Assembly: GCA_024398515.1 (NCBI GenBank)
Contig: JAKSIZ010000010.1
Location: forward strand, 1 to 52,031
Length of the DNA: 52,031 nucleotides
Source: Bacteroidaceae bacterium
GTDB taxonomy: Bacteria; Bacteroidota; Bacteroidia; Bacteroidales; Bacteroidaceae
Direction of reading: 5' to 3'
Every line of letters begins with the position of its first letter. Position 1 is the first letter of the stretch. The translations under genes and the position numbers were made by a program. Below are positions 3,727 through 46,462 of the stretch, piece by piece. The notes below the pieces were generated by a model. It ran no database searches, had not been told where the DNA came from, and saw nothing but the letters and a program-made list of their open reading frames with translations.

Positions 3727-4830
3727 TCATCCTTTAAGTTTCTCGAAATATCTCTTCAAAAGTTTGTTGGCAGCAATAAACGATGTCTCCTGTCCTGCAA
3801 GAACTTGCTGCTCTTCCTCGCCCAATGCAGCGTGAATCTCACGGTCGTTATAGAAATTGTTGCGCAGTGTTTCGTTTATTGTCTCGTACATCCAGTATTT
3901 GCTCTGCTCGTTGCGTCGGTACTCGAAGTAACCGTTTTTCTTTACAAAGTCAAAATACTCATAAACCATGTCCCAAACTTTCTCGATGCCAATACCGTAA
4001 AAACCTGAATAGCAAAGCACCTTTGGCAACCATCCACTGTCTGGCTTAGGGAAGAAGTGGAGAGCATTTCGGAAGTTCGTTGCTGCCATTTCGCACTTTT
4101 CTGTGTTGTTGCCATCGCACTTGTTGATGACGATACCGTCGGAGATTTCCATTATACCACGCTTAATGCCCTGCAATTCGTCGCCTGTTCCTGCGAGTTG
4201 GATGAGTAGGAAGAAGTCAACCATGCTATGACATGCCGTTTCACTTTGCCCAACGCCTACCGTCTCGACAAAGATCTTGTCGAAGCCAGCAGCCTCGCAG
4301 AGTATTATGCTCTCGCGAGTCTTTCGTGCAACGCCTCCTAAACTTCCAGCTGTTGGCGAAGGACGGATGAAACTGTCGGGATGAACAGACAGTTTCTCCA
4401 TACGCGTCTTGTCGCCGAGTATGCTGCCTTTTGACCGTTCCGAACTCGGGTCGATGGCAAGGACTGCCAACTTCCCCTTGTACTTCTCAAGCAGATGAAT
4501 ACCAAAAGCGTCAATGGATGTACTCTTGCCAGCACCAGGCACACCACTGATGCCGATGCGAATGGAGTTTCCACTATAAGGGAGACACTTCTCAATCACC
4601 TCTTGTGCCTTGGCGATATGGTCGGGGTTGACGCTTTCAACGAGTGTCACCGCCTGTGAAAGAATCGTAATATCACCCTTGACAATGCCTTCGACCATAT
4701 CAGCAGCCGAGAGTTCGCGACGTGCAAAGCGTCCTTTCTTCAAATAAGGATTGATAATGCTGACAGGCTGTTCTACTCCGTTGTTCACCTGCAGTCCTTT
4801 GTATTCTTCGTTATTTTCTGGATGTATCAT
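3727..4830 (-). CDS. meaB: Methylmalonyl-CoA mutase-associated GTPase MeaB/ArgK
   Basis: A 367-aa G3E-type GTPase that protects and reactivates the B12-dependent methylmalonyl-CoA mutase during cofactor loading. The P-loop GVPGAGKS is at residues 96-103, followed by DPSSERSKGSILGDKTRM, the ETVGVGQSE switch region and NKCDG as the guanine-specificity motif. The mutase genes are not in the window. The start codon overlaps the stop of the DUF1573 gene by 4 bp, and ispH begins directly after it, so the three are co-translated. The older name ArgK reflects a former misassignment as an arginine-transport kinase. Confidence 0.92.
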   Translation of the reverse strand: MIHPENNEEYKGLQVNNGVEQPVSIINPYLKKGRFARRELSAADMVEGIVKGDITILSQAVTLVESVNPDHIAKAQEVIEKCLPYSGNSIRIGISGVPGAGKSTSIDAFGIHLLEKYKGKLAVLAIDPSSERSKGSILGDKTRMEKLSVHPDSFIRPSPTAGSLGGVARKTRESIILCEAAGFDKIFVETVGVGQSETACHSMVDFFLLIQLAGTGDELQGIKRGIMEISDGIVINKCDGNNTEKCEMAATNFRNALHFFPKPDSGWLPKVLCYSGFYGIGIEKVWDMVYEYFDFVKKNGYFEYRRNEQSKYWMYETINETLRNNFYNDREIHAALGEEEQQVLAGQETSFIAANKLLKRYFEKLKG

Positions 4831-8402: not shown

Positions 8403-8421
8403 AATAACATTTTTTCGAATT

Positions 8422-9612
8422 CTACATTCTTTCTTCATCCCCGGAGAGTGCTGCCAGTGTCTCACGAAACATGTGCTTCATGTCGTTATCGAACTTTATG
8501 CCCAAGTCCTCGGCATATCGTTCGGCTATAGCGATGGGATCCTCCGTCTTAAACTCCTCCACGGACATCACCTTTGCCTCTCTGCAATTCTTTTTCAGTC
8601 TCCGTGAATTGATTACGCAGAACCTGCATCTCTTCTCCTCGCAAATCATGAGTGCTTCTGCATTTGCTTCTACAGGAAGGAAATCGTCAACCTCCACATT
8701 CAGTCGGATATATGCCTCGATGTCGTTGGGATAGTTCTCAAGCAACTCCTTGGCATACTCCCATGTTGCAACCCCTTTTGTCGGAAGAGTCACCAGAGGG
8801 CGATAGGGTTTTATCTCAATCTCCTCAACCATAGGCTTCCCTCCATGTTCGGCAATCTCGACAATAGAGACAGAATGCTTGTAGTTCTCGTCGAACGAAA
8901 CAGGAATAGGCGTTCCGCAATATCTAACGTTGTGCCTACCCGAATGTATGAATTGCCCATGGTGAATATGGCCGAGCGCCAGATAGTCATATCCTGTACC
9001 CATATCGTCGAGGTCGTACGAGTCAATACCCCCTACCGTGTAGTCGTCAGCCGTGCCACAGCCCTGTCTGACTACATTCTCATGCCCTGCAAAGTCGCAA
9101 CCCCTAACAGTGGTGTGAGCCGTCATCACAACAGGGAGGTTATCGGCATTCTTTTCTTCTACAATGTCGAGCAGCTCCTGAAACAACCCCCTCGGCAAAT
9201 TCCTCTCGTTGACGTAAGGTACGGCAACGACATACCCCTTTCCTGGTATCTCAACTATCATCTCATCCTTCTGGCTGGCATCTATACTGCCAACCGTATA
9301 AACCTTCATAGCCTTCCATGGAGTGCGGAATATGTCGTGCTTCGTACCGCTGTCATGGTTACCGGCAGTGACAACCATCGTCATTTCAGGATTAGCATTG
9401 TGAATCTCCACCAAGGCATTAGTAAACATCGTCTGCACGGTAGCCGAAGGCTGAGGAGAATGATATACATCGCCGCATAGCAGAAACACGTCGGGCTTAT
9501 GCGCCTTCACTATTTTCACCATCTCAATCATCATCGCCATCTGCTCCTCCGTGCGGTCGTAGTTGTAAAGGGTCTGTCCTAAATGCCAGTCGCTTGTATG
9601 CAGTATCTTCAT
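8422..9612 (-). CDS. sbcD: Exonuclease subunit SbcD (Mre11-like nuclease)
   Basis: A 396-aa metallophosphoesterase nuclease, the catalytic partner of SbcC. Metal ligands are clear: D8 and H10 in HTSDWHLG, D48 in LCGDVYH, N85-H86-D87 in AGNHDSG, and the late LGHIHHG motif. A C-terminal capping domain follows. It is the first gene of the sbcDC operon. A TATTTTTG -7 box (complement of 9699-9706), with CAAA 22 bp further on, may be its promoter. It marks the left border of the accessory island. Confidence 0.95.
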   Translation of the reverse strand: MKILHTSDWHLGQTLYNYDRTEEQMAMMIEMVKIVKAHKPDVFLLCGDVYHSPQPSATVQTMFTNALVEIHNANPEMTMVVTAGNHDSGTKHDIFRTPWKAMKVYTVGSIDASQKDEMIVEIPGKGYVVAVPYVNERNLPRGLFQELLDIVEEKNADNLPVVMTAHTTVRGCDFAGHENVVRQGCGTADDYTVGGIDSYDLDDMGTGYDYLALGHIHHGQFIHSGRHNVRYCGTPIPVSFDENYKHSVSIVEIAEHGGKPMVEEIEIKPYRPLVTLPTKGVATWEYAKELLENYPNDIEAYIRLNVEVDDFLPVEANAEALMICEEKRCRFCVINSRRLKKNCREAKVMSVEEFKTEDPIAIAERYAEDLGIKFDNDMKHMFRETLAALSGDEERM

Positions 9613-18338: not shown

Positions 18339-19220
18339 TTATATCTTTTCGAGCACCAATTCGATGAGGTCGTCGATGTTGTTCTTGTAGTTTGTATTCA
18401 TTTCTTTAGCCACACGGTTGGCTATGACCATGCAAACCGTCATGCCGCGATGCCCAAGATGTCGGCAAAGACCTGCGACAGCGGCACTCTCCATCTCGAA
18501 GTTTGTGATGCGGTATCCATGCCAATCGAAGCTTTCAATCTTCTCATTACGCTGCGGATCGGCAAGAGGAATGCGCAGTTCACGCCCTTGTGGACCATAG
18601 AAACCACCGCAAGAAATGGTCACGCCCTTTATCATCCCAGCCTCAGGTTGGTATATGCGTTCAAGCAGTTCGGCGTTGTTGTCAACCACGTAAGGCGATG
18701 GCAGATGATGGTAATCCCAGCCAAGATGCTCGGCAAATGCCTTTTCAAATTCAAGGTCGCAGATGCTGTCGCGGTTGGCATAATAGTTGATCAGCCCTTC
18801 AAAACCGATGCTCTTTTCGCTACAGATGAATGAACCCACCGGACAGTTCTCCTGCAATCCGCCGCATGTTCCGATGCGGACTATGTCCATGCACGTAAGT
18901 TTGTCCTTGAGTGTGCGGGTCTTGAAGTCGATGTTCTTCAGTGCATCGAGTTCGTTTATCACAATGTCGATGTTGTCGCATCCGATGCCGTGCGAGAGGG
19001 TAGTGATTCGTTTGCCCTTGTATGTGCCCGTGATGGTATGAAACTCGCGCGATGAGATTTCGCATTCCTTTGTGTCGAAGTGTGAGGCAATGAGGTCAAC
19101 ACGCCCAGGGTCGCCGCACATCACCACCTTGTCAGCCAATTGTTCGGGCTTGATGTGGAGGTGGAAACAACTGTTGTCATCGTTGATGATGAGTTCTGAT
19201 TCTGCAAAATATTTTCCCAT
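18339..19220 (-). CDS. Nucleoside phosphorylase (uridine phosphorylase-like)
   Basis: A 293-aa cytoplasmic enzyme of the PNP/UDP family that phosphorolyses nucleosides to free base and (deoxy)ribose-1-phosphate. Visible are the phosphate-binding GDPGRV (residues 36-41), RIGTCGGLQ, and FEMESAAVAG near residue 245, where Met-Glu contact the ribose. NP-1 features (SHGIG, GTCGG) are intact. The exact base specificity cannot be read from the sequence; a uridine phosphorylase is most likely. It is upstream of mnmE with 68 bp between, on the same strand, and may be co-transcribed. Confidence 0.85.
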   Translation of the reverse strand: MGKYFAESELIINDDNSCFHLHIKPEQLADKVVMCGDPGRVDLIASHFDTKECEISSREFHTITGTYKGKRITTLSHGIGCDNIDIVINELDALKNIDFKTRTLKDKLTCMDIVRIGTCGGLQENCPVGSFICSEKSIGFEGLINYYANRDSICDLEFEKAFAEHLGWDYHHLPSPYVVDNNAELLERIYQPEAGMIKGVTISCGGFYGPQGRELRIPLADPQRNEKIESFDWHGYRITNFEMESAAVAGLCRHLGHRGMTVCMVIANRVAKEMNTNYKNNIDDLIELVLEKI

Positions 19221-19308: not shown

Positions 19309-19402
19309 CGAACGCTTAACCCGAAAAAAAGTTGTACAACTTTCGGTTGAAAGTTGTACAACTTTCGCGCGAAAGTTGTACAACTTTTTTCCGAGTTAAA
19401 CG
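19309..19402. repeat. Palindrome-array element, copy 2
   Basis: Three exact copies of AAAGTTGTACAACTTT at 19328-19343, 19350-19365 and 19372-19387, separated by the 6-bp spacers CGGTTG and CGCGCG (period 22 bp). The left arm is GAACGCTTAACCCG and the right arm CCGAGTTAAACGC, roughly inverted to each other. An A-run precedes and a T-run follows. It sits between the Nfn-like gene's 3' end and the phosphorylase's 5' end. Confidence 0.95.
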
Positions 19403-19462
19403 CACGTGTGCAGAAAGCCATCCGAAGGAGTGAGCAAAGACTAAGCCACAGTCAGGGCAAAT

Positions 19463-28383: not shown

Positions 28384-28500
28384 TGATTGGGATGAACGCT
28401 TAAGTCGAAAAAAAGTTGTACAACTTTCAACGAAAAGTTGTACAACTTTCGCGCGAAAGTTGTACAACTTTTTTTGCCCCCAACAGAACGTATTGTGAAG
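28384..28500. repeat. Palindrome-array element, copy 3
   Basis: Three copies of AAAGTTGTACAACTTT at 28412-28427, 28434-28449 and 28456-28471 with the 6-bp spacers CAACGA and CGCGCG. The left arm GATTGGGATGAACGCTTAAG is nearly identical to the inverted flank of copy 1; the right arm (AGAACGTATTG) is degenerate. Similarity to copy 1 reaches back to a TTTTTCGCACC block near 28363. It lies between the tolC-like gene and the Crp/Fnr gene; apart from the promoter, nothing else is seen in this 366-bp gap. Confidence 0.95.
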
Positions 28501-34704: not shown

Positions 34705-34998
34705 TCATTTTTTATAAAATGACTTATTTTCTCTCAATAAATTCTTCACATATTTCACGCTCGATATGTATTCTTCGTCCTCGCCCATGCCTACCCAATG
34801 CACTGCATTTGCCATTGCTGCGCCACGTGCATAGACCTTCATTCCGTCCTCAGCAGTGCTGTTCAGGTGAGAAAGTGCGGCTGCATACACATTAGTATAA
34901 TAGAACAGCAGCCAGATGCTCACTGTCTGGTAAATCAGGTTTTCAGCCAATTCGCCCGAACAGTACCCTATGCGTTCTCGCCAAGTCAATGCGTTCAT
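34705..34998 (-). pseudogene. N-terminal stump of a GPH-type (MelB-like) sugar transporter
   Basis: The ATG at 34998 opens 97 codons. The first 40 or so (MNALTWRERIGYCSGELAEN, then a membrane helix ending WLLFYYTNVYA) match the start of glycoside-pentoside-hexuronide:cation symporters, which are normally about 450 aa with 12 helices. After that the frame switches to an unrelated soluble tail (MKVYARGAAMANAVHWVGMG...). This looks like an internal deletion that joined the transporter start to the end of another gene. The promoter upstream (TAACTTTG, complement of 35047-35054) still looks intact, so a short protein may be made. Confidence 0.6.
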
Positions 34999-35046
34999 GC
35001 TATACCGAATTTTATTGTTTGCGGTTGCGTTTGGTAATATCAGATG

Positions 35047-35054
35047 CAAAGTTA
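35047..35054 (-). promoter_or_regulatory. -7 box of the transporter remnant
   Basis: TAACTTTGCA on the minus strand; the matching -33 region is weak (GTTTT). Confidence 0.45.
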
Positions 35055-35182
35055 ATGAAAAAAATGATAACTGAAAACTTTTTCTTTCTTTTTTCTGCAT
35101 AACTTTCACTGCGCAACACATTAGTTCTGCCGGCATATCATGCGTCGAATTTGTAAGGTTGTCCGATGGCGTTTCACGGATT

Positions 35183-35285
35183 GAACGCTTAAGTCGGAAA
35201 AACATTGCAGCAATGTTGGTCCGAACATTGTAGCAATGTTGACTCGAACATTGCAGCAATGTTTGCCGGAGTCAAGCGTTCGACT
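35183..35285. repeat. Palindrome-array element, copy 4 (second core)
   Basis: Three 17-bp palindromes AACATTGCAGCAATGTT (35201-35217, 35247-35263; the middle one, 35224-35240, has T for C next to the centre) separated by the 6-bp spacers GGTCCG and GACTCG. The left arm GAACGCTTAAGTCGG is the one found at copies 1 and 3; the right arm GAGTCAAGCGTTCGAC is its inverted partner. The core differs completely from copies 1-3 but the layout is the same. Confidence 0.95.
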
Positions 35286-35363
35286 TTTGCAACGCCAACG
35301 CTCGCATCGCAAATCGAAAAGCATAAAACTAACAAAAAATTATTGGTGTCCTTTAGAATATAG

Positions 35364-35425
35364 CTATCAGCCCAGAGCATAGCAAAGCGACGCCCTGGGC
35401 TGATAGTTTGCTGCTCCTTCAGAGC
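35364..35425. repeat. Dispersed-type double hairpin upstream of rpsA
   Basis: CTATCAGCCCAG (35364-35375) and CTGGGCTGATAG (35395-35406) form a perfect 12-bp stem with a 19-base loop; GCTC-CTTCA-GAGC (35413-35425) forms a second small hairpin. It resembles CCCAGGGC / CCCTTTCAGGGC repeats that I associate with Bacteroidetes intergenic regions. The rest of the 34999-35626 gap holds only promoters and repeat copy 4. Confidence 0.65.
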
Positions 35426-35505
35426 GTAAAAAGAATGCTTCAGTAGGGCTTGTCCTTAAATATTGCGATAATGCATATAAAGTTGAATAATTTAATCAAA
35501 AAAGT

Positions 35506-35536
35506 TTTGGGGATTCAAAAAAAAGTTGTAACTTTG
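35506..35536 (+). promoter_or_regulatory. rpsA promoter
   Basis: TTTG at 35506-35509 and TAACTTTG at 35529-35536, 19 bp apart. The leader to the ATG at 35627 is about 85 bases, longer than that of neighbouring genes, and could carry autogenous control as in other bacteria (inference). Confidence 0.75.
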
Positions 35537-35626
35537 TGCCCGATTTGCGCCATGCGTGCGAAATCAACAAGAAAAAGCGACAGAAACTAATTTTTATTTT
35601 ATAAATTTTCAGAGTTAATTAACATT

Positions 35627-37423
35627 ATGTCAAACTTAAATGAATTAAAAAACGTACAGCCGTTGCAGGATTTCGATTGGCAAGCATTCGAATCAGGAAG
35701 TGCTGTAGGTGGTCAGTCGCAGGAAGAGCTTGAAAAGGCTTACGACGAGACTTTAAACAAGGTGCAGGAACATCAGGTAGTTGATGGTACTGTCATCGCA
35801 ATGAACAAACGTGAAGTAGTAGTTAATATCGGCTACAAGAGCGACGGTATTATTCCTATTTCAGAATTCCGCTACAACCCAGAACTCAAGGTAGGCGACA
35901 CAGTAGAAGTCTATGTTGAGAATCAAGAGGACAAGAAAGGCCAGCTCCTTCTTTCTCACAGGAAGGCACGCGCAAGCAAGAGCTGGGAACGCGTCAATGC
36001 AGCCCTCGAATCACAGGAAGTTGTCAATGGATTTATCAAATGCCGCACTAAGGGTGGCATGATCGTTGACGTATTCGGCATCGAGGCATTCTTGCCAGGA
36101 AGCCAGATCGACGTACATCCAATCCGCGACTACGACCAGTTCGTAGGCAAGACAATGGACTTCAAGATTGTCAAGATAAATCAGGAATTCAAGAATGTGG
36201 TTGTTTCTCATAAGGCACTCATCGAGGCTGAAATGGAAGCACAGAAGCAGGAAATCATGAGCCACCTCGAAAAAGGTCAGGTACTTGAAGGCGTTGTTAA
36301 GAACGTTACTTCGTACGGTGTATTCATCGACCTCGGTGGTGTTGACGGACTTATCCACATCACAGACCTCTCTTGGGGCCGCGTAAGCGATCCTCACGAA
36401 GTTGTTACACTCGATAGCAAAATCAATGTTGTTATCCTCGACTTCGACGAAGAGAAGAAGCGTATCGCCCTCGGCCTTAAGCAACTTACACCACATCCAT
36501 GGGAAGCACTCGATGCAAACATCAAGGTTGGCGACCGTGTTAAGGGTAAGGTAGTCGTTATGGCTGACTACGGAGCATTCGTAGAGATTGCCCCAGGCGT
36601 TGAAGGACTCATCCACGTAAGCGAAATGTCATGGAGCCAGCACCTGCGTTCTGCACAGGACTTCCTTAAGGTTGGCGACGAAGTAGAGGCAGAAATCCTC
36701 ACTCTTGACCGCGACGAGCGCAAGATGTCACTCGGTATCAAGCAACTCAAGGAAGACCCATGGGAGAAGATTGAAGAGAAATATGTTGTCGGAAGCAAGC
36801 ATAATGCAAAGGTTCGCAACTTCACTAACTTTGGTGTATTCGTAGAACTTGAAGAAGGTGTTGACGGACTTATCCACATCAGCGACCTCTCTTGGACTAA
36901 GAAAATCAAGCACCCAGCAGAGTTTACACAGGTTGGTGCACCTATCGACGTTGTAGTTCTCGAAATAGATAAGGAAAATCGTCGTCTCAGCCTTGGTCAC
37001 AAGCAGCTCGAAGATAATCCTTGGGACAAGTACGAAGCAGTTTATACAGTAGGTTCAATCCACGATGGTACTGTAAAGGAAATCATGGATAAGGGTTCAG
37101 TTATCGAACTTGAAAAGGACGTAGAAGGCTTCGCAACTCCTAAGCACCTCGTTAAGGAAGACGGAACTAACCCTGTTGTTGGCGATGTTCTCCCATTCAA
37201 GGTAATCGAGTTCAACAAGGACAGCAAGCGTATCATCCTCTCTCACAGCCGCACATTCGAAGACGAACAGCGTGCAGCAGTTGCTGACGAGAAGAAGGTT
37301 GCAGCAAAGAAGGCTCCAAAGAAGGAGGCAACTCCAACAATCCAGAACCAGGCTGCAAGCACAACACTTGGCGACATTGACGCTCTTGCACAGCTCAAGG
37401 CTCAGATGGAAGCAGGCGAATAA
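35627..37423 (+). CDS. rpsA: 30S ribosomal protein S1
   Basis: A 598-aa mRNA-binding ribosomal protein with six S1 (OB-fold) repeats. Recognisable cores are VDGTVIAMNKREVVVNIG, VVNGFIKCRTKGGMIVDV, VLEGVVKNVTSYGVFIDLGG, RVKGKVVVMADYGAFVEI, KHNAKVRNFTNFGVFVEL and IHDGTVKEIMDKGSVIEL. The N-terminus is acidic and the C-terminus is a lysine/alanine-rich tail. Strongly biased, highly expressed-type codon use sets it apart from its neighbours. It is monocistronic, with its own promoter and a strong terminator. Confidence 0.96.
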   Translation: MSNLNELKNVQPLQDFDWQAFESGSAVGGQSQEELEKAYDETLNKVQEHQVVDGTVIAMNKREVVVNIGYKSDGIIPISEFRYNPELKVGDTVEVYVENQEDKKGQLLLSHRKARASKSWERVNAALESQEVVNGFIKCRTKGGMIVDVFGIEAFLPGSQIDVHPIRDYDQFVGKTMDFKIVKINQEFKNVVVSHKALIEAEMEAQKQEIMSHLEKGQVLEGVVKNVTSYGVFIDLGGVDGLIHITDLSWGRVSDPHEVVTLDSKINVVILDFDEEKKRIALGLKQLTPHPWEALDANIKVGDRVKGKVVVMADYGAFVEIAPGVEGLIHVSEMSWSQHLRSAQDFLKVGDEVEAEILTLDRDERKMSLGIKQLKEDPWEKIEEKYVVGSKHNAKVRNFTNFGVFVELEEGVDGLIHISDLSWTKKIKHPAEFTQVGAPIDVVVLEIDKENRRLSLGHKQLEDNPWDKYEAVYTVGSIHDGTVKEIMDKGSVIELEKDVEGFATPKHLVKEDGTNPVVGDVLPFKVIEFNKDSKRIILSHSRTFEDEQRAAVADEKKVAAKKAPKKEATPTIQNQAASTTLGDIDALAQLKAQMEAGE

Positions 37424-37448
37424 TACACAATATTATATATAAGGAAAA

Positions 37449-37478
37449 GGCGCACTCAATTGAATGCGCCTTTTTTTT
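37449..37478 (+). terminator. rpsA terminator
   Basis: GGCGCA and TGCGCC (37449-37470) form a GC-rich stem; an A-run precedes it and eight T residues follow, so it could also serve the convergent gene. Confidence 0.92.
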
Positions 37479-37515
37479 ATGCCCGACTTAACCGGCAAGG
37501 TTGTAATATTGTGGG

Positions 37516-38790
37516 CTAAATACTGTAGCTGAATCCCAACGATGTGTATTCACGGAACTGGAAGAAACCGTAATCGTCGTCGCGTACAGTACCGTCGTCG
37601 AATCGAGGATAGAGGAATAACTTCGCACTGATATACTTGGAGAGCTTGAACGTAAATGTGTTTTCCCATTCAACCTCGGCACGTCTGTAAGTAGTATATC
37701 CCCAAAGTCTCGTCTCGTATGTGAACAAGTCGGAAGGATTCCACCTGAAATTAAACGTGAGTGAAGAACCAATATCGTTCAGCGTACTGTGGTTTGGCTT
37801 CAAGCTATAGCGTGTGGCAAGTTCTTCACGACCGACGTAACGGAAGTTGTAAGCCACTGGAGCAAGGTTCAATGTGCCGTTTGCCTTCTTGTTCTTGCTC
37901 TCGAACTTGTAATCCATACCGATTGCAAGGTTGAAGTTGAATGGCGACATGAAGTCGGAATAAATGTAATGGTCGTTGGACTTCAAACCTTTATGGAACT
38001 GCGTATAAGTGAGGACTTGGAATGTATAATACCAGCGTTTTGTTGCTTGAATGCCTAATTTGCCCGTGTAACGAATGAGGTCGTCGGTGGTGCGGAACTT
38101 GTGCAGAGAGTCGCTTTCCGATGTCTGGAAACCGAGTTTAAGTTCAAGTTTGTTGTCGAAAGTAACCTTTTGCTTGTTGTTGTAGTTTGCTTGCAATACT
38201 ATATTGCCGAGCATAGAGTAGTTTCTTTCACCACCTTTGTACCAATTGTTGGTGAAGAAATTCTGGAGGAATTGCAAATAATAATCCTGTTTGAAAGTCC
38301 AGAAATTAGGTTTCTTAATGACAACGTCGAAGTCGCCAACGTCGTTGGATGGCGTAACAACAGGTGCATCGTTGTTGGCAACAACTTCAACATCGCTCGA
38401 CGTAGGCGCTACTTCTTGCAGTCCGCCTACTTCTTCCAGTGTTTTCTCTGACTCCTTAACGAGTTCTGGTCGAGTCACATAAACGTTCATGAGCGCATTG
38501 TCAACGGCATAGCGCAATTCGTCATCAGCGTCTATTTCGGTCGAGTCGATGTTCAATAGGCTTGCTATCGGTGAGTGATAGAACGTAAGTGGAGCAAACA
38601 GACGGTAGTATCGCCCGTCTTTATCCACGCTAACCTGCTCGCCAGATGCGGACCTGTAAATTTGACGACTCTCCACTTGTCCTTTTATCACAGCAAGCGA
38701 ATCAAGGTATCTTGATGCAAAATCAGATTGCGCAATAATTGTCTGTGACGACATTAGCGCTGCTAAAAATAAATACTTGACTTTTTTCAT
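37516..38790 (-). CDS. DUF3078-family outer-membrane-associated protein
   Basis: A 424-aa exported protein with a signal peptide (MKKVKYLFLAALMSSQTIIAQ). A linker region (about 110-150) rich in V/N/P/D is followed by a C-terminal half of alternating beta strands rich in aromatic residues (NNWYKGGERNYSMLGNIVLQ, YRRAEVEWENTFTFKLS) ending in FSYSI, as in outer-membrane beta-barrel proteins of Bacteroidetes. Its function is not established. The ATG at 38790 is required for the signal peptide. The -7 box ends only 6 bases before it, so the mRNA may be almost leaderless. It is convergent with rpsA and divergent from pyrG. Confidence 0.8.
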   Translation of the reverse strand: MKKVKYLFLAALMSSQTIIAQSDFASRYLDSLAVIKGQVESRQIYRSASGEQVSVDKDGRYYRLFAPLTFYHSPIASLLNIDSTEIDADDELRYAVDNALMNVYVTRPELVKESEKTLEEVGGLQEVAPTSSDVEVVANNDAPVVTPSNDVGDFDVVIKKPNFWTFKQDYYLQFLQNFFTNNWYKGGERNYSMLGNIVLQANYNNKQKVTFDNKLELKLGFQTSESDSLHKFRTTDDLIRYTGKLGIQATKRWYYTFQVLTYTQFHKGLKSNDHYIYSDFMSPFNFNLAIGMDYKFESKNKKANGTLNLAPVAYNFRYVGREELATRYSLKPNHSTLNDIGSSLTFNFRWNPSDLFTYETRLWGYTTYRRAEVEWENTFTFKLSKYISAKLFLYPRFDDGTVRDDDYGFFQFREYTSLGFSYSI

Positions 38791-38796
38791 ACCTTG

Positions 38797-38830
38797 CAAA
38801 GGTATAAAAATTTTTACAACATAAAGCAAA
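38797..38830 (-). promoter_or_regulatory. Promoter of the DUF3078 gene
   Basis: TACCTTTG (complement of 38797-38804) with TTTG 22 bp upstream (complement of 38827-38830). Only 6 bases separate the -7 box from the ATG. Confidence 0.65.
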
Positions 38831-38887
38831 TGTCACCTCATATTTTCGATTTTTTTCAAAAAAAATTAAAAAACATATCATTTCGTT

Positions 38888-38918
38888 GTTGCGATTACTC
38901 AAATATTTCGTAACTTTG
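38888..38918 (+). promoter_or_regulatory. pyrG promoter
   Basis: GTTG at 38888-38891 and TAACTTTG at 38911-38918 (19-bp spacer). The ATG is 9 bases after the -7 box, so the leader is only a few bases long. Confidence 0.65.
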
Positions 38919-38927
38919 TACCCCGTT

Positions 38928-40523
38928 ATGGAAACTAAATATATATTTGTTACAGGCGGAGTGGTAAGTTCTTTAGGCAAGGGCATTATCTCATCCTCAA
39001 TTGGTAAGTTGCTCCAGGCAAGGGGCTACAACATCACAGTGCAGAAGTTCGATCCGTATATCAATACAGATCCAGGTCGTCTTAACCCTAATGAGCATGG
39101 TGAGTGCTACGTGACCATCGACGGCATGGGAACGGATCTCGACCTTGGTCACTATGAACGTTTCACTGGAATACAGACCACAAAGGCGAACACTCATACC
39201 ACTGGACGCATCTACGCATCGGTTATTGCGAAAGAAAATCGTGGCGAGTATTTCGGCAAGACAATACAAGTCGTACCACATATCACCGACGAAATCAAGC
39301 GCAACATCAAGATGATGGGCAAGCAGAAGAAGTTTGATTTTGTCATCACAGAGATTGGCGGAACGGTAGGCGACATAGAATCTTTGCCTTACCTTGAGGC
39401 TATCCGACAGTTGAAATGGGAAATGGGAAAGAATGCAGTGTGCGTACATCTCACATATATACCGTACCTGAAGGCTGCCGGTGAACTTAAAACCAAACCT
39501 ACACAACATTCGGTAAAGGGGTTGCAAAGTGTCGGCATACAGCCAGATTTGCTTGTACTCCGTACGGAAAAGCACTTGAGCCAAGGTGTTCTGAAGAAGG
39601 TGGCAAGTTTCTGTAACGTTGATGAAGACTGCGTTGTACAGAGCGAAGACCTGCCAAGCATCTATGAAGTGCCAGTGAATATGCAGAACCAAGGCATGGA
39701 TGCAGCGATACTCCGCAAGATGGGAATAGAGGTAGGCGAGACTCCTGCGCTTGGTCCTTGGCGTTCGTTCCTCGAAAGATTCAAGACTTCAACGAAGGAA
39801 GTCAAGATTGCACTCGTTGGAAAGTACGATCTTCAGGATGCATACAAGAGCATTCGTGAGAGCCTTTTCATTGCTGGTGCATATAATGACCGCAAGGTTG
39901 TGATAAAGTATATCAACAGCGAAAAGATTACCGACGACAATGCTGCCGAAACACTTTCACCTTATGCAGGTGTAGTGATTGGTCCTGGCTTTGGCGAAAA
40001 GGGAACTGAAGGCAAGATGTCTGCCATAAAGTATTGCAGGGAAAACAATGTCCCGACGTTTGGCATCTGCCTCGGAATGCAAATGATGGTGACGGAATTT
40101 GCAAGAAACGTACTCGGACTGAAGGGCGCAAACTCACGCGAAATGGACGAAAAGACTCCATACAACGTGATAGACGTGATGGAAGACCAGAAGAATCTCT
40201 ACGATGGGGCAATGCGTGTTGGTGCATACGACTGCTTAATCCAGACTAAGAACAGCAAGACATACGAGGCTTATAAGACAGAAAAACTCTCGGAACGCCA
40301 TCGTCATCTTTATGAGTTCAACAACGAATACCTCGCAGATTTTGAAAAGGCAGGTATGATTGGAGTGGGGAAGAACCCTGAAACAGATTTGATAGAGATA
40401 GTTGAATTGCAAGGACACAAGTGGTTTGTAGGCACACAATTCCATCCGGAATATAACAGCACAGTGCTCAAGCCTAATCCTCTCTTCCTCTCATTCATAG
40501 CTGCCGCATCGGAAAAGGATTAA
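38928..40523 (+). CDS. pyrG: CTP synthase
   Basis: A 531-aa enzyme that converts UTP to CTP using glutamine. The N-terminal synthetase domain (TGGVVSSLGKGI near residue 10, then NPNEHGECYVTIDGMGTDLDLGHYERF) is followed by a class I glutamine amidotransferase domain with the nucleophile in FGICLGMQ and the His-Glu pair in FHPEYNS. The ATG at 38928 (METKYIFVTGG) is the family start. The frame is open for 14 codons upstream, but these lie in the promoter. yidC follows after 82 bp. Confidence 0.97.
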   Translation: METKYIFVTGGVVSSLGKGIISSSIGKLLQARGYNITVQKFDPYINTDPGRLNPNEHGECYVTIDGMGTDLDLGHYERFTGIQTTKANTHTTGRIYASVIAKENRGEYFGKTIQVVPHITDEIKRNIKMMGKQKKFDFVITEIGGTVGDIESLPYLEAIRQLKWEMGKNAVCVHLTYIPYLKAAGELKTKPTQHSVKGLQSVGIQPDLLVLRTEKHLSQGVLKKVASFCNVDEDCVVQSEDLPSIYEVPVNMQNQGMDAAILRKMGIEVGETPALGPWRSFLERFKTSTKEVKIALVGKYDLQDAYKSIRESLFIAGAYNDRKVVIKYINSEKITDDNAAETLSPYAGVVIGPGFGEKGTEGKMSAIKYCRENNVPTFGICLGMQMMVTEFARNVLGLKGANSREMDEKTPYNVIDVMEDQKNLYDGAMRVGAYDCLIQTKNSKTYEAYKTEKLSERHRHLYEFNNEYLADFEKAGMIGVGKNPETDLIEIVELQGHKWFVGTQFHPEYNSTVLKPNPLFLSFIAAASEKD

Positions 40524-40605
40524 AAGATAATAAGATGTTGTAATTGTTTCTTAACTTTTGAAAAAATACACATTATTTATATATATAAGAACAAAAAAGA
40601 AATAA

Positions 40606-42480
40606 ATGGATAGGAATACAATCATTGGCTTCATTCTCATAGCAGCCGTATTGATAGGCTTTGGCTATTGGAATCAGCCTTCAGCGGAACAAATTGCAGA
40701 ACAAGCACGTCAGGACTCTATTGCCACGGCACAGAAGAAGGCAAAAGAGGAAAAAGCTAAACTCGAAGAAGAAAAGTCGATTACTGCCTTCAAGGACACA
40801 ACAAGCAGTGATAGTGCCGTAGTTGACAGCATAAGTGCTTTGCCGGAATCGTTCACAACGCTGCAAAACAATAACATTGCCGTTGACATAACCAATAAGG
40901 GTGGCTTTGTAAAGAAAGCTGTCATAAAGGGTTATGAGTCGCTCGAAGGAAAACCAAACGTGACTGTATTCGAAGGAGATGAGCAGACGCTTGACTTCAG
41001 AATGGCAGGAAAGGATATGAACATTATCACAAAGCAGATGACGTTCATACCTGTCAACGCTACCGATTCGTCGGTTGTGATGCAAGCCAAAGTCGGAGAT
41101 ACAGGTGTGTTGAGCATTGCTTACAACTTGCCGTACGACTCTCATCTGCTGCAAATAACTTTGAAAGCTGAAGGCATAGACGGATTGTTCTCGCCAAACT
41201 GCAACAGCATGACCGTTGACTGGCGCGACCATTGTCGTCAGCAAGAGAAGAGTTTTTCGTTTGAAAACCGCTACACTTCGCTCACATATAAGGAAGCCGG
41301 TGCTGGCACGGATTATTTGAATGAAGGAAAAGATGTTGAGGAAACTGTAGAGGAACCACTCGATTGGGTTGCTTACAAGACACAGTTCTTCAGCGTTGTG
41401 CTTATTGCTGAGAAACAATTTGCAAAGAACTCTACCCAGACAAGTACTCCTGAAGAGAAGGGTGGAGGCTATTTGAAGCAATTCCATTCGCAGATGCAGA
41501 CAAACTTCGACCCACAGGGCAACGAACCGACACGCTTCGAAATGTATGTAGGTCCAAACAATTTCCGACTTCTGCAAAAGGTCAGCGACCAGACAACCTT
41601 CGACAAGAAACTTGAACTTCAAGACCTAATCTATCTCGGATGGCCTATTATCAAGTGGATAAATCGTTGGTTCACGCTCTACGTCTTCGACTTCCTCACC
41701 TCGATGAACATTAGCATGGGCATCATACTTATTCTTATAACGCTGCTCCTCAAGGTCATCACATACCCAATGGTGAAGAAAAGTTATATGAGCAGTGCGA
41801 AGATGAGGGTGTTGAAACCGAAACTCGAAGAGGCTACAAAGGAATACAACAAGCCGGAAGATGCTATGCAGAAGCAGCAGGCAATGATGCAACTCTATTC
41901 GCAATATGGCGTAAGTCCACTCGGAGGCTGCTTGCCAATGATTATTCAGATGCCTATCTGGATTGCTATGTTCAACTTTGTACCAAATGCAATCGAACTC
42001 CGCCGACAGAGTTTCCTTTGGATTAAGGACCTTTCTACATACGACCCAATCTTTGAGTGGACAAACAATCTGCCACTTATTGGCGACCACTTGAGTCTTA
42101 CTTGTATTCTCTTCTGTGCTGCAAACGTAGTATATTCCGTTCTCAGCATGCGTCAGCAGAAAGACCAGATGGTAGGGCAGCAAGCAGATCAGATGAAGAT
42201 GATGCGCTGGATGATGTATCTCATGCCAGTAATGTTCTTCTTCATCTTCAACGACTACTCGGCAGGTCTTAACTTCTACTACTTCATCTCATTGTTCTTC
42301 TCGGCTGCAATAATGTGGACATTGCGCAAGACGACAAACGACGAAAAACTCCTCGCAACGCTCGAAGCACGCTATAAGGAGAACAAGGCAAAGCCTGCTG
42401 CTAAACAGGGAGGTTTCGCTGCACGTCTTCAGGAACTGCAAAAGCGTCAGGAGGATATGCGCAAGCAGAGAGGATATTAA
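40606..42480 (+). CDS. yidC: Membrane protein insertase YidC
   Basis: A 624-aa insertase that folds inner-membrane proteins alone or with SecYEG. It has an N-terminal helix (TIIGFILIAAVLIGFGYW), a lysine/glutamate-rich linker, a large periplasmic beta domain (about 80-340) and the conserved C-terminal core of five helices (from WFTLYVFDFLTSMNISMGIIL, including GGCLPMIIQMPIWIAMF and the hydrophilic-groove region). The tail is basic (KRQEDMRKQRGY). pyrG lies upstream on the same strand. The next gene starts 29 bp after its stop without a visible terminator. Confidence 0.96.
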   Translation: MDRNTIIGFILIAAVLIGFGYWNQPSAEQIAEQARQDSIATAQKKAKEEKAKLEEEKSITAFKDTTSSDSAVVDSISALPESFTTLQNNNIAVDITNKGGFVKKAVIKGYESLEGKPNVTVFEGDEQTLDFRMAGKDMNIITKQMTFIPVNATDSSVVMQAKVGDTGVLSIAYNLPYDSHLLQITLKAEGIDGLFSPNCNSMTVDWRDHCRQQEKSFSFENRYTSLTYKEAGAGTDYLNEGKDVEETVEEPLDWVAYKTQFFSVVLIAEKQFAKNSTQTSTPEEKGGGYLKQFHSQMQTNFDPQGNEPTRFEMYVGPNNFRLLQKVSDQTTFDKKLELQDLIYLGWPIIKWINRWFTLYVFDFLTSMNISMGIILILITLLLKVITYPMVKKSYMSSAKMRVLKPKLEEATKEYNKPEDAMQKQQAMMQLYSQYGVSPLGGCLPMIIQMPIWIAMFNFVPNAIELRRQSFLWIKDLSTYDPIFEWTNNLPLIGDHLSLTCILFCAANVVYSVLSMRQQKDQMVGQQADQMKMMRWMMYLMPVMFFFIFNDYSAGLNFYYFISLFFSAAIMWTLRKTTNDEKLLATLEARYKENKAKPAAKQGGFAARLQELQKRQEDMRKQRGY

Positions 42481-42509
42481 CAAATCAAACCATACAAAGG
42501 GAAGAGAGC

Positions 42510-45500
42510 ATGGTGGACAACAGGGCTGTTGAACCGCAAAGGGACAATGTATATAACCGCAACACATTGAATGAAGGTTTCTACAACGAGTTGCTTTACA
42601 TCATGGGACTCGAAGAAACCAAGAACAAGACTGATAAGGTTGTACGTATTCAACGCTTGGAGAAAGACCGTCAATCCTACTCTCTTCTTGAACAGACAAT
42701 AAGGGTTATTGTTGAGCATCCACGGATTTCAGATTCTAACGAATTGTTTGAAAATGCCCTCGGCCTTGTGCTTACGTGGGTCAACCGACTCCTTTTCCTG
42801 AAACTGTTGGAGGCACAACTTTCAAACTATCAGGAAATTCTTACATGCGAAAAGATTAAGTCGTACAATGACTTCTTCGATCTTTTCCTTAAAGTATTGG
42901 CACGACCATCTGATGCGAGGGATGAAGAAGCAAGGCAAAAGTTCCAAGACGTACCTTATCTTTATAGTTCACTGTTCGAGTATTCAAAGCTGGAATCCGA
43001 CCTGATCCCTATAAATTGCCTTTCTGACGGCGACATGGATTTGTATCCTCGTACTATCTTGAAAGACAAAAGCGGCCGTCGGCTTGAAGGGAAGATTAAT
43101 TCGCTGAAATACCTTCTTGACTTCCTCAACGCCTATAGCTTCGGCTCTGACACGGAAACTATAGATATAAAAAGGAAAAAGAAAACCAAGACAATAATCA
43201 CTGCCCCAGTCTTAGGACTTGTATTTGAAAAGATAAACGGATACAAGGACGGAGCATATTTCACTCCATCCTACATTACTGAATACATGAGCCGCGAGGC
43301 TATACGCCGTGTTATCGTCGATAAATTCTGCAAGGCAAACGATTGGAACTGCAAGACAATAGGCGAAGTCGCCACGCTTATAGGCAACGACATCGAGTCT
43401 AAGCAAAAGGCAAACGCCATCGTCAACAGCATTACAATCTGCGACCCAGCCGTTGGAAGTGGGCATTTCCTCGTCTCGGCGCTCAACGAACTTATGCTTA
43501 TCAAGTATGAGTTGGGCATTCTCATGCTTCACAACGACGCTCACGATAGCTTCGACAAATACGAATTGCACATCGTTGACGACGAACTCGTCATCTCCAA
43601 CCCTGATGGTTTCTTCAGGTACAACCCTGCCGACCACGACTCATACGTCGTTCAAAAGACCATCTTTGAAGAGAAGAAAACCATAATAGAGAATTGTCTT
43701 TTCGGCGTTGACATCAACCCAAAGAGTGTAGAGATTTGCCATCTACGCCTATGGATTGAACTGTTGAAGAACGCATATTATGAGAATGGCGAACTCCAGA
43801 CGTTGCCTAACATCGACATCAACATCAAGTGTGGCAACTCGCTCCTTTCGAAATTCGACGTGAACACAAAGGACCGTATTGCACTCGACAAGCGTATAGA
43901 ATACATCATACCCGAATATAAGGCAATGGTGAAGCGGTACAAGACCTGCAACGACAAGCACGAACGCCATGCCATTCACAAGGAAATAGAGCAGATCAGG
44001 CACTCGTTTGAGGACTGTTTCCCTCTCGATATGTTCGGCAGCAAGAAGACGCAGCAGAAGTCATACGCCGACAATACTTTCGAATGGTTAATGGAATTCC
44101 CTGAAACATTGTCCGATACTGGCCAGTTCATTGGCTTTGACATCATCACGGGCAATCCGCCATACATCCCTTTGCAGAAGTTAGGCGACGAGTCGAAGAA
44201 CTATGGTCGCATGGTCTTCAACGCAAACAATGAACTCGAACCACTCTATCAGACATACAACGCAAAGGGCGACATCTATTCCTTGTTCTATGAACGAGGC
44301 TTGCATCTGCTGAAACAGGGCGGCTTACTCTGCTTCATCACCTCGAACAAATGGATGAGAACCGACTATGGAAAATCGACCAGACGCTTCTTACTCGATA
44401 ATGTAAACCCGAAACTGCTCATTGATTTCCCTTGCCTGCAACTGTTCGACAAGGCTACAGTCGAGACAAACATCCTCCTCTACAGCAACGAAAAGAACCT
44501 GCATGAACTTGAATGCGCCGTTATCGACAAGGGACGCAAGGACTCGTTGAAGCATCTTTACACTTCCGTAGCTGAGATAAAAACCCCTTGCAACTTCAAT
44601 ACAGACGACAAGTGGATTATCACAAACGAGATAGAACAAAGCATTCAGTCGAAAATCGACAGCATAGGCACGCCATTGGCTGACCCACGATGGGGGCTTC
44701 AACCTAACTTTGGAATAAAGACTGGCAACAATGACGCCTTCGTTATCTCAAGTGATACAAGGACGAAAATACTCTCCTGGTGCCGCGACGAGGACGAACG
44801 CGTGCGCACCTCAAAGCTTCTTCGTCCATTGCTGCGAGGCGAAAGCATTGGCAGATTCTCCGATAATTGGGACGGAACCTGGCTTGTTGCATCCTTCCCA
44901 TCACGCCGTTACAACATCGACGAATACCCTGCCGTACGCAAATATCTCTTGTCGTTTGCCTACGATCAACTCATCGCAAACGGCAACGAAACCATTGCAA
45001 GCAACCATCTTGAAGAGTATTGCAAGCAGAAACTTAACCAAAGCGGAGCCGAAATCATTGTCTGTGGCAAACCAGTTCACGACCAGAGTGGCAAGACAAT
45101 AAAGTCGCGCAAGGCTACGACAAACAAATGGTACGAGACTCAGGACAACATAAGTTACTGGCGAGAATTCAAATACCCAAAGATATTGTGGAAAAGAATT
45201 GGCTCTGACCTGCGCTTTACCTACGACGACCGTGGCTTCTATGGACTCGACAGCACGTGTATCATGACAGGACGCTACCTTAAATACATCTGCTGCATAC
45301 TCAATTCATCGCTTGGTCACTACCTCATTTCGCGCAATGCACAAAAGACAGGCACGGGCGATCTACTCGTAAGCGTACAGGCAATCAAGCCTATTCGTCT
45401 GCCACTGCCAAAGGAAGAACCGGTTGCTCTCAACGAACTCTGCGACCGAATCCGCGCATCATATACCCCAGAAACGTATGATGCGATAAACCAAGAGGTC

Positions 45501-45554
45501 TATCGCATCTACAACCTTACCGACGAAGAAATCGCCTTCATCAGCAAATTTTAG
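42510..45554 (+). CDS. Type IIG (Eco57I-like) restriction-modification methyltransferase, probably N-truncated
   Basis: A 1014-aa adenine-specific DNA methyltransferase. Motif I DPAVGSGHF is at 312-320, and the catalytic motif IV NPPY is at 549-552 in GFDIITGNPPYIP. A TaqI-type target-recognition region follows in the C-terminal third (GRYLKYICCILNSSLGHYLISRNAQKTG). Related fused enzymes carry an N-terminal nuclease domain of roughly 250-350 residues before the FYNELLYIMGLEE helix; here that helix begins at residue 24, so the nuclease part seems lost. Only 29 bp separate it from yidC and no promoter is evident, so it may depend on read-through. If active, it would methylate but not cut. Confidence 0.8.
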   Translation: MVDNRAVEPQRDNVYNRNTLNEGFYNELLYIMGLEETKNKTDKVVRIQRLEKDRQSYSLLEQTIRVIVEHPRISDSNELFENALGLVLTWVNRLLFLKLLEAQLSNYQEILTCEKIKSYNDFFDLFLKVLARPSDARDEEARQKFQDVPYLYSSLFEYSKLESDLIPINCLSDGDMDLYPRTILKDKSGRRLEGKINSLKYLLDFLNAYSFGSDTETIDIKRKKKTKTIITAPVLGLVFEKINGYKDGAYFTPSYITEYMSREAIRRVIVDKFCKANDWNCKTIGEVATLIGNDIESKQKANAIVNSITICDPAVGSGHFLVSALNELMLIKYELGILMLHNDAHDSFDKYELHIVDDELVISNPDGFFRYNPADHDSYVVQKTIFEEKKTIIENCLFGVDINPKSVEICHLRLWIELLKNAYYENGELQTLPNIDINIKCGNSLLSKFDVNTKDRIALDKRIEYIIPEYKAMVKRYKTCNDKHERHAIHKEIEQIRHSFEDCFPLDMFGSKKTQQKSYADNTFEWLMEFPETLSDTGQFIGFDIITGNPPYIPLQKLGDESKNYGRMVFNANNELEPLYQTYNAKGDIYSLFYERGLHLLKQGGLLCFITSNKWMRTDYGKSTRRFLLDNVNPKLLIDFPCLQLFDKATVETNILLYSNEKNLHELECAVIDKGRKDSLKHLYTSVAEIKTPCNFNTDDKWIITNEIEQSIQSKIDSIGTPLADPRWGLQPNFGIKTGNNDAFVISSDTRTKILSWCRDEDERVRTSKLLRPLLRGESIGRFSDNWDGTWLVASFPSRRYNIDEYPAVRKYLLSFAYDQLIANGNETIASNHLEEYCKQKLNQSGAEIIVCGKPVHDQSGKTIKSRKATTNKWYETQDNISYWREFKYPKILWKRIGSDLRFTYDDRGFYGLDSTCIMTGRYLKYICCILNSSLGHYLISRNAQKTGTGDLLVSVQAIKPIRLPLPKEEPVALNELCDRIRASYTPETYDAINQEVYRIYNLTDEEIAFISKF

Positions 45555-45568
45555 TATATTCAAGCAGG

Positions 45569-46123
45569 TTAATCGTCGAATCCGTCGCCGCCGCCAAAGC
45601 CACCTTGACGCATACCGCCACCGAATCCACCGCCGAATCCGCCGCGCATACCGCCTCCGGATCCGCCACGCATACCGCCACGGTTCATCATGCGACGCAT
45701 CTGCTTCCGCTGATCCTTCTGATATTTCTCAAACTTCTCGTCGCCAACGATCTTCTTAAGTTCATGGTTATACACTTCCCTTTGCTTGTTCATCTCCGTC
45801 ATCTTTTCAGTCATCTCCTTCATCATAGCCTCACGCATCTCCTTTGTAGGCCTCTTGATTGAGTCCGGAGCCTGTCCGTCAGGGCGTGGACCAAAGTTAG
45901 GGCGCTCCCACATTGAAGCATACTTCTCGTTAAGAGCCTTTACCTGAGCAGCCTGATCCTCGTTTAGTTCCATGTCCTTAGCCATCTTCTCCGAACGTTC
46001 CTCTACTGTCATAGGCTTGAAACCCTGGTGCATACCGCGGTTAGGTCTGCCCTGTGGAGCATTCTGAGCCATAACTGTTCCCATACTAAGCAATGCAATG
46101 ATTGTAAAAATAATCTTTTTCAT
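45569..46123 (-). CDS. Exported Spy/CpxP-like protein (DUF4890)
   Basis: A 184-aa protein with a signal peptide (MKKIIFTIIALLSMGTVMAQ). A helical, methionine- and charge-rich central part (MTVEERSEKMAKDMELNEDQAAQVKALNEKY...) resembles the Spy/CpxP helical fold. The C-terminus (about 150-184) is glycine-rich, made of GGMRGG and GGFGGG-like repeats. Family members are periplasmic and may act as chaperones, but this is not proven here. A TATATTTG -7 box lies on the minus strand at 46195-46202. It is convergent with the methyltransferase gene, only 14 bp away. Confidence 0.78.
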   Translation of the reverse strand: MKKIIFTIIALLSMGTVMAQNAPQGRPNRGMHQGFKPMTVEERSEKMAKDMELNEDQAAQVKALNEKYASMWERPNFGPRPDGQAPDSIKRPTKEMREAMMKEMTEKMTEMNKQREVYNHELKKIVGDEKFEKYQKDQRKQMRRMMNRGGMRGGSGGGMRGGFGGGFGGGMRQGGFGGGDGFDD

Positions 46124-46293
46124 AACCTTGAAATTTTTAATTGTTGAATTTATAATAAGTCTTTTTAACTATGGTCATATCTTTTGCCATCGTTCAAATA
46201 TATTGACGCAAAAACAAGAAAAAGGTTTAACACTCCCACATGATTTTTGCTCTTTCGTCGCAGGTCGTGCTTTATGCCCTCACAAGACGAACG

Positions 46294-46462
46294 TAATACT
46301 CCAGAAAAAACTGCTACAGTTTTCACCCCAAAACTGCTACAGTTTTCAATCCAAAACTGCTACAGTTTTTTGCAGTCGCTATGCTTTGTGCTCATCGCCT
46401 CTTAGGCTATTCTTCGACAAGCGAAGCGCTTCGCGATAACTTTGCAAGCCAAGCGTTCGTGT
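46294..46462. repeat. Palindrome-array element, copy 5 (third core)
   Basis: Three exact 17-bp palindromes AAAACTGCTACAGTTTT (46307-46323, 46330-46346, 46353-46369) separated by the 6-bp spacers CACCCC and CAATCC. A degenerate left arm GAACGTAATACTCC precedes, and AAGCGTTCG appears at about 46453 on the right. It has the same geometry as copies 1-4 with a third, unrelated core. The interval up to the queA end also contains the 14-bp palindrome GCGAAGCGCTTCGC (46421-46434). Confidence 0.93.

Follow-up and report, generated by a model that had tools for sequence, protein, structure and literature searches.

Evenly spaced arrays of three palindromes between genes of a Bacteroidaceae bacterium: candidate DNA-binding platforms in a 22-bp register

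The contig JAKSIZ010000010.1 of a Bacteroidaceae bacterium (52,031 nucleotides; hereafter the window) carries short arrays of three palindromes that stand between genes, return along the chromosome at even distances and recur, written in other letters, in related bacteria. We favor the view that these arrays are cooperative DNA-binding platforms that mark off segments of the chromosome, a reading to which we assign slightly less than even odds (a probability of about 0.48). The window spans all of contig G000:C2 in a draft genome, G000, that comprises 2.65 Mb in 90 contigs and is incomplete (87.8%); arrays were scanned for on six of its contigs, window included, for a total of 714,380 bp or 27% of the draft. 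One genome was compared per species, the contigs of relatives were sampled non-randomly, where earlier hits pointed, and genes were predicted by a simple codon score.

An earlier note on the window had described three palindromes with 6-bp spacers at 35201-35263 and 46307-46369, and direct reading of both sites bears this out: the first array runs AACATTGCAGCAATGTT, AACATTGTAGCAATGTT, AACATTGCAGCAATGTT, and the second consists of AAAACTGCTACAGTTTT three times over. Scanning the six contigs for similar palindromes that recur at pitches of 18 to 28 bp yielded 63 arrays of three or more palindromes, all of them members of one family and, with the scan free to extend further, all with exactly three units (63/63). 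The same scan returned 27 two-unit hits, many of which are off-centre readings of known arrays or unrelated; a search directed at the cores confirmed one two-unit array (C1:108542) and added an array whose middle unit has decayed (C12:22401) and a contig-end remnant (C12:62). In 4.23 Mb of Markov-resampled sequence from relatives, a stricter scan gave no array with three palindromes or more, two exact array patterns had no matches in viral contigs, and the DNA of one array had no plasmid match.

Clustering of the cores, as the earlier note had proposed, gave four classes on the six contigs (B, 26 arrays; D, 18; A, 12; C, 7), with a pitch of 22 bp in class A and 23 bp in classes B, C and D. The class B half-site, AACATTG, is invariant (156/156), and the others are largely kept: AAAGTTG in class A (64/72), AAAACTG in class D (95/108) and AACATTC in class C (30/42, with CACATTC making up 10 of the rest). 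Since these half-sites lie only 1 to 3 of 7 bases apart (one of the six pairs at one base, three at two and two at three), the core classes are not unrelated, as had first been supposed. The centres of the class B palindromes vary (CTG, CAG, CTC, TAG, CTA, GAG, GTA). Spacer pairs are specific to a class and less strictly kept; those of class B carry the consensus at 231 of 312 positions. Cores inside arrays of their own class have at most 1 mismatch; of those with 1-2 mismatches found outside arrays there are 0, 13, 6 and 4 for A, B, C and D, against 1, 4, 4 and 3 in shuffled sequence, so that decayed copies are few, with a slight surplus in class B. Judged from the letters, this pairing of constant half-sites and drifting spacers with few decayed copies looks like a set of selected recognition sites.

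The units had been thought homogenised within an array and divergent between arrays, a picture that changes in that cores are not private to one array but shared by many, in four dispersed classes. Of the two causes offered for it, concerted evolution within single arrays or several related specificities, the latter fits better, half-sites being fully or mostly identical across the arrays of a class. Neutral homogenisation, by which template switching at quasi-palindromes would keep the half-sites of an array alike without any function, accounts for half-sites that stay alike while spacers and centres drift, and for cores that differ between arrays and species. It fails on the identical half-sites of 26 separate class B arrays, as it does on the pitch of 22 in several species, the count of three and the even spacing described below, and we hold it to be the least probable explanation of those considered.

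Each side of the triple carries several flank units that point inward, the innermost of which is the arm. Within 80 bp of the core, identity at a lag of 22 is 0.37 versus an average of 0.26 (125 flanks); the consensus reads ggacGAaCGtTtaAcTCggaaA in frame -22, a.tcGa.CGtTtggctTTt..a in frame -44 and ..tt.a.cgtTtt..TTTc... in frame -66, fading frame by frame outward until it is nearly lost past about -110. Classes A, B and C mostly have an arm of the GAACGCTTAA type and class D one of the ACGACCTTTATACTCG type, A and C often have a CCCCCAACAGA type on one side, and in 7 of 63 arrays none of the three types is found on either side. Of the arm that the earlier note saw shared between the two core types of the window, the copy GAACGCTTAAGTC at 35183-35195 is exact; the supposed arm at 46294 proved to be GAACGTAATACTC at 46289-46301, a second arm type that is close to ACGACCTTTATACTCG and found mostly with class D cores. 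The broader claim of one architecture with exchangeable cores and shared arms is upheld, in that 40 of 42 arm matches on the six contigs have a triple array no more than 30 bp away and the remaining two belong to a two-palindrome array and to an array truncated by a contig start. Every arm match on these contigs thus goes with an array, and arms that are common without arrays, which would undo the idea of a single family, were looked for there and none was seen. In the window, AAAGTTGTACAACTTT has seven matches, all exact, where 0.48 would be expected allowing up to 3 mismatches; for an 11-base arm at up to 2 mismatches, the window by itself shows no enrichment (19 matches, a number that 10 of 100 shuffles reach, versus 13.9 expected), and a 13-base arm with at most 1 mismatch has 103 copies in the G000 genome versus 1 for the reversed control.

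Nearly all triples (62/63) are clear of predicted genes. The sole overlap is that of the window's class B array with a 184-aa open frame (34705-35259) that has no Pfam match and is probably spurious. Excluding four arrays at contig edges, 33 of the remaining 59 lie between tandem genes, 15 between divergent and 11 between convergent ones, which resembles the background of gaps of at least 150 bp (84, 34 and 21) and indicates no preference of orientation. Gene-level control, in which a few regulators, each with its own class, would act on many neighboring genes through the arrays as three-site operators, agrees with the palindromic, dimer-type sites, with their related half-sites and with the many arrays upstream of genes; tandem operators are, moreover, common. 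Yet promoter sides are not preferred, convergent gaps holding 11/59 arrays against 21/139 of the background, and the order of classes along contigs is random (16 of 57 neighbors alike versus 16.5 expected). Even spacing and a minimum distance would also be unexpected of operators, an explanation we consider improbable.

Action through RNA or single-stranded DNA, as terminators or processing hairpins, finds some agreement in the 7-bp stems with 3-nt loops of classes B, C and D, in the median distance of arrays from stop codons (95 bp, n=55), which is shorter than that from starts (191 bp, n=63), and in a one-sided polarity at tandem pairs in classes B (10/13) and C (4/4). The sign of this polarity was set per class (A, 3/4 of the same sign; D, 4/12), and over the 33 tandem arrays no class is significant alone for gene-strand polarity. 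Against such structures, folding energies are weak (0 to -4.0 kcal/mol for unit RNA hairpins overall, -1.2 to -3.7 kcal/mol for the four classes), the invariant letters of the class B stem leave no covariation, and divergent gene pairs hold arrays at the expected rate. The stable GC-rich hairpin followed by a U run after genes that typifies intrinsic terminators is not what these arrays present, their stems being weak and convergent gaps showing no excess over background. We regard an RNA role as less probable still than operators.

Examination of the distances between arrays revealed a marked regularity. From the scan alone, 57 intervals have a mean of 10.6 kb, a coefficient of variation (CV) of 0.44 and a minimum of 4,706 bp; with two added arrays, the 59 intervals have a mean of 10.26 kb, a median of 9.35 kb and a CV of 0.38, and 55 of them fall within 5-16 kb. 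Adding the two contig-end arrays gives 61 intervals and a CV of 0.384. In 20,000 random placements into gene gaps the CV was 0.87 (lowest 0.55) and the minimum never exceeded 2.1 kb, so that none matches the observed arrangement. One of the two longest gaps that at first seemed free of arrays contains a gene of 3,437 aa and later yielded the decayed D array C12:22401; the other contains a long operon. Neighbors of different classes keep a minimum distance like that of neighbors of one class (4.7 and 5.8 kb), and even spacing together with exclusion across classes points either to a chromosomal role or to target immunity.

Target immunity is central to the main rival explanation, a non-autonomous element resembling miniature inverted-repeat transposable elements (MITEs), whose inverted arms or flank units would be recognized by a transposase acting in trans, whose copies would be kept several kb apart by immunity and whose core classes would be selfish subfamilies. 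The minimum distance that holds across classes is in accord with this, as are the class-specific spacers, the long flanks common to some copies and the confinement of the arm in high copy to this genome among 60 searched (it stays at background in the 59 relatives, of which 35 are congeneric). At window position 19220, moreover, a gap of 242 bp corresponds in Candidatus Equicola stercoris to an orthologous gap of 27 bp by gene ends or 42 bp by DNA alignment, and a 23-nt repeat element of Porphyromonas gingivalis has been called a MITE (PMC4596501). Several features argue the other way. No target duplication was found at 62 arrays (offsets of 0-199 on each side, k of 3, 4, 5, 6 and 8); among the best three results of each test, the strong signals come from inside the flank units, no further than ~30 bp from the core. 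Inverted arms are present, but the conserved signal falls away from the core in steps of 22 bp and no sharp border was seen, half-sites are kept while the rest drifts, decayed copies are few, and one relative (G016) has arrays spaced more evenly than hard exclusion would give. A transposase search of G000, confined to the Y1 family, gave a single partial PF01797 match (positions 4-71 of 121, 28.4 bits against a cut-off of 23) with an internal stop, in a genome that is 87.8% complete. PF01797 also covers IS200-type proteins. On balance we judge a MITE-like origin unlikely, while ranking it well above the other alternatives.

Having characterized the arrays of G000, we asked what recurs elsewhere. 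In 1.785 Mb from other Bacteroidales, an identity-based scan gave 14 arrays with at least three palindromes, against none in the resampled control; the pitch of the 14 is 22 in nine, 21 in one, 23 in one and 41-46 in three. By autocorrelation, stretches with a lag of 22 reach 63 per Mb in the same genus (74 in 1.175 Mb), 33 per Mb across a set of 80 named loci that are mostly Bacteroides-, Prevotella- or Parabacteroides-like (45 in 1.38 Mb, at 30 of 80 loci), 8.6 per Mb in other Bacteroidales families (3 in 349 kb, with an equal number at lag 23) and 2.5 per Mb in other orders and classes (1 in 400 kb), with none in 100 kb of E. coli. The letters of the units vary by species and sometimes within one genome (L149, G028), and when pitch is scored without regard to identity between units, a peak appears at 22 in G010 (12 versus 0 at other pitches), G003 (3) and G028 (3).

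Inspection of G010 revealed a layout of outer units, central palindromes and outer units whose letters are unlike those of G000. Many of its arrays have outer AAAAGRTKAYCTTTT units, which are degenerate, and 13 of 31 have the AT centre of AAAAATAAWTTATTTTT, for which the folding energy is 0; copies with this centre number three in 11 arrays and two in 2, and never four. A count of three thus holds in two species, G000 and G010. The 31 arrays of G010 lie in 480 kb with a CV of 0.57, or 0.455 when pairs closer than 2 kb are merged. G016 has long degenerate arrays in one 22-bp register, 28 of them in 200 kb with a mean interval of 7.3 kb and a CV of 0.36; with pairs below 2 kb merged, its CV of 0.31 marks a spacing more even than exclusion alone would produce (P 0.0014). 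Even spacing accordingly holds in three of the four species tested (G000, G010 and G016, not G003).

How might such arrays work? Weak hairpins, a pitch of two helical turns, fixed half-sites with drifting spacers and graded flanks together suggest a cooperative dimer on duplex DNA, and intergenic sites about 10 kb apart, with no two within 4.7 kb of each other on the contigs read, most likely mark segments of the chromosome. Each array would accordingly form a symmetric protein platform on double-stranded DNA, its centre holding three strong palindromic sites spaced by 22-23 bp, or roughly two turns of the helix, and its two sides a few weaker units that carry on the 22-bp register. A dimeric DNA-binding protein, present as several paralogues or specificities, one per core class, would load on the central triple and from there spread into the weaker units, its copies lying side by side on a single helix face. 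Platforms placed between genes every ~10 kb would then delimit chromosome segments, in a nucleoid or topological-domain function, rather than control single genes, and the letters of the sites would turn over fast between species together with the protein while the geometry is held. We prefer platforms to a mobile element because target duplications and sharp borders are absent, decayed copies are few and evenness in G016 goes beyond exclusion; the short Equicola gap, the class-specific spacers and the shared flanks keep the mobile element in contention. The history may also be mixed, an element having first spread by copying and later been retained as a platform. Somewhat more tentatively than for the platforms themselves, we propose a chromosome-wide ruler in Bacteroidaceae-type bacteria, in which three palindromes in a 22-bp register every ~7-17 kb would keep geometry and spacing while their letters are rewritten between species, or between parallel classes, by coevolution with a fast-changing family of DNA-binding proteins.

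Several observations weigh against platforms. The spacing in G000 is a borderline case of being more even than simple exclusion would make it (P 0.053; P 0.015 for interval shape), that in G010 shows no such extra evenness (P 0.30), and the arrays of G003, for which the unit model is weak, are uneven (CV 0.96). G032 lacks a pitch-22 peak in the identity-free score and is sparse, with about nine arrays of its core in 4.3 Mb, and G016 shows the peak at looser thresholds only. Some arrays of relatives have four or more units, and 21.8 kb of the nearest named relative, Candidatus Equicola stercoris, contain no arrays. Cores of class B with 1-2 mismatches are in slight surplus outside arrays, long stretches are common to some arrays, so that copying does happen, and no binding protein has been identified for the arrays. 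HU-HIG proteins (PF18291) were tried as a predictor by count, which does not follow array density in the four genomes compared (8 matches in G000, 30 in G003, 6 in G010 and 7 in G016). The family ranges from 2 to 30 members per genome among 21 same-genus relatives searched, and one of the eight matches in G000 (63718-64086 on contig C45, in the stretch 63554-64086) belongs to a gene that starts ~100 bp from a class B array.

Positional conservation was too sparsely sampled to conclude from: conserved gene pairs were compared 71 times, 7 times at a gap holding a G000 array (6 of these at a single gap, 5 with ~2 kb between the genes in the relative), and the relative's gap holds an array in 0 of 7 versus 1 of 64 others. 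A conserved array upstream of an rpsA-like gene was also considered, arrays with different cores being present there in L077, L094, L131, L151 and the window. The candidate was dropped, as 4 of 76 loci have pitch-22 arrays and 4 more have weak ones at other pitches, which we judged to be intergenic background (76 of 80 loci were checked, four with at most 472 bp upstream being excluded). The S1-domain protein at 35627-37423 of the window has 86% identity with that of Candidatus Equicola stercoris and ~82% with those of metagenome-assembled genomes of Prevotella, in a comparison from which the window's own record may have been missing; this places the source among gut or rumen Bacteroidales close to Prevotellaceae/Bacteroidaceae.

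Known repeat systems share parts of this design. Plasmid iterons are binding sites of 17-22 bp at a pitch of ~22 bp that are read on one helix face; they are direct repeats at one origin, whereas the arrays here are palindromes at many even chromosome positions. The matS, parS, SlmA and Noc sites are palindromic dimer sites spread over a chromosome, but they are single sites of one conserved sequence, partly confined to a domain or origin, in contrast to triples with turnover between species. Arrays of clustered regularly interspaced short palindromic repeats have spacers of ~20-40 bp between repeats, unlike the 6-bp spacers seen here, which are partly shared between loci. Hairpins of repetitive extragenic palindromic (REP) elements are adjoined by a conserved tetranucleotide of the GTAG/GGAG type; such words, on either strand and within 14 bp of the core, occur at 20 of 126 flanks, about chance by our estimate. 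We know of no REPs with a fixed trio, a single 22-bp register and cores exchanged inside fixed arms. REPs and bacterial interspersed mosaic elements with REP-associated tyrosine transposases (RAYTs) resemble the arrays in being intergenic palindromes with hundreds of copies, often species-specific and in regular local arrays (PMC2817692, PMC12306157). G000 differs in that its sole Y1-transposase match is the partial, interrupted one described above, and a RAYT/REP reading draws no clear support from that search.

A close parallel in the same order is BrickBuilt, a minisatellite or MITE of P. gingivalis with 19 copies, which like the present arrays is dispersed, intergenic and restricted to a species in its sequence. 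According to the available part of its description (PMC4596501), it consists of 1 to 22.8 tandem 23-nt units without spacers, unlike three palindromes with variable 6-bp spacers, between a non-identical leader and tail of up to ~300 nt that bear IS5-type terminal repeats and possible target duplications; 'dyad symmetry' of the repeat is mentioned once there, and even spacing is not. Its terminal repeat (GAGACCTTTGCA / CGCAAAGGTCTC; PMC4596501, Table 2) was not found within 400 bp of the 63 arrays at up to 1 mismatch; nine copies lie elsewhere on the six contigs, none in the window.

The features of the window are collected in Table 1. Draft contigs terminate within arrays at window position 1, at G000:C12:62 and at the end of G000:C49 (L016), which indicates that the repeats probably break the assembly; further arm matches lie close to contig ends (C63:54, C67:110).

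Table 1. Components of the palindrome arrays in the 52,031-nt window
Feature	Position	Strand	Details
Class A array truncated by contig start	1..53	.	partial palindrome 1-13, palindrome 20-35, inverted arm 41-53
Class A array	19310..19404	.	arm 19310-19322, palindromes 19328-19343, 19350-19365, 19372-19387, right arm 19393-19404
Class A array	28394..28493	.	arm 28394-28406, palindromes 28412-28427, 28434-28449, 28456-28471; alternative CCCCCAACAGAAC type on the right
Left flank of class B triple, three 22-bp frames	35135..35200	+	periodicity from 125-flank consensus; single copy degenerate
Class B left arm GAACGCTTAAGTC	35183..35195	+	exact; innermost of the inward-pointing 22-bp flank units
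Class B central triple	35201..35263	.	palindromes 35201-35217, 35224-35240, 35247-35263; spacers GGTCCG, GACTCG
Class B right arm GAACGCTTGACTC (minus-strand reading)	35269..35281	-	inverted GAACGCTTAAGTC with changes
Class D left arm GAACGTAATACTC	46289..46301	+	
Class D central triple	46307..46369	.	palindromes 46307-46323, 46330-46346, 46353-46369; spacers CACCCC, CAATCC

Further observations concern the arrangement of classes in relatives. In G010, the AT-rich central palindrome is clustered in a third of one contig (G010:C3:580000-1210000, 21 of 29 positions), as if a core class marked a region of the chromosome; the borders were set after looking, and for this reason the P value is not used. 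At L149 (uncultured Prevotellaceae RUG606; 2548-2670 and 8268-8520), the palindromes GGACGCGTCC, GGATTTGNNCAAATCC and GAAGTTGGCCAACTTC, of different classes, stand close together, some apparently in a single 22-bp register. L079 (uncultured Bacteroides sp.; 4220-4351) has a 23-bp array of at least four units, with TTCACCNNGGTGAA palindromes and GCCTCC-like spacers.

Searches of an open-access library (subscription papers lay outside its scope) listed no title or abstract beginning that describes this architecture, which points to an array system that is probably undescribed. Dispersed repeats are usually recognized by their sequence; here sequence is exchangeable, and the constants are pitch, symmetry, spacing along the chromosome and, in two species, count. 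If the arrays are read by protein, they would constitute a new kind of chromosome-organizing system in common gut and rumen bacteria, one whose specificity diverges at the speed of an arms race, and how these nucleoids are divided would become a directly testable question; if they are selfish DNA, they would clearly exemplify target immunity acting across an entire chromosome.

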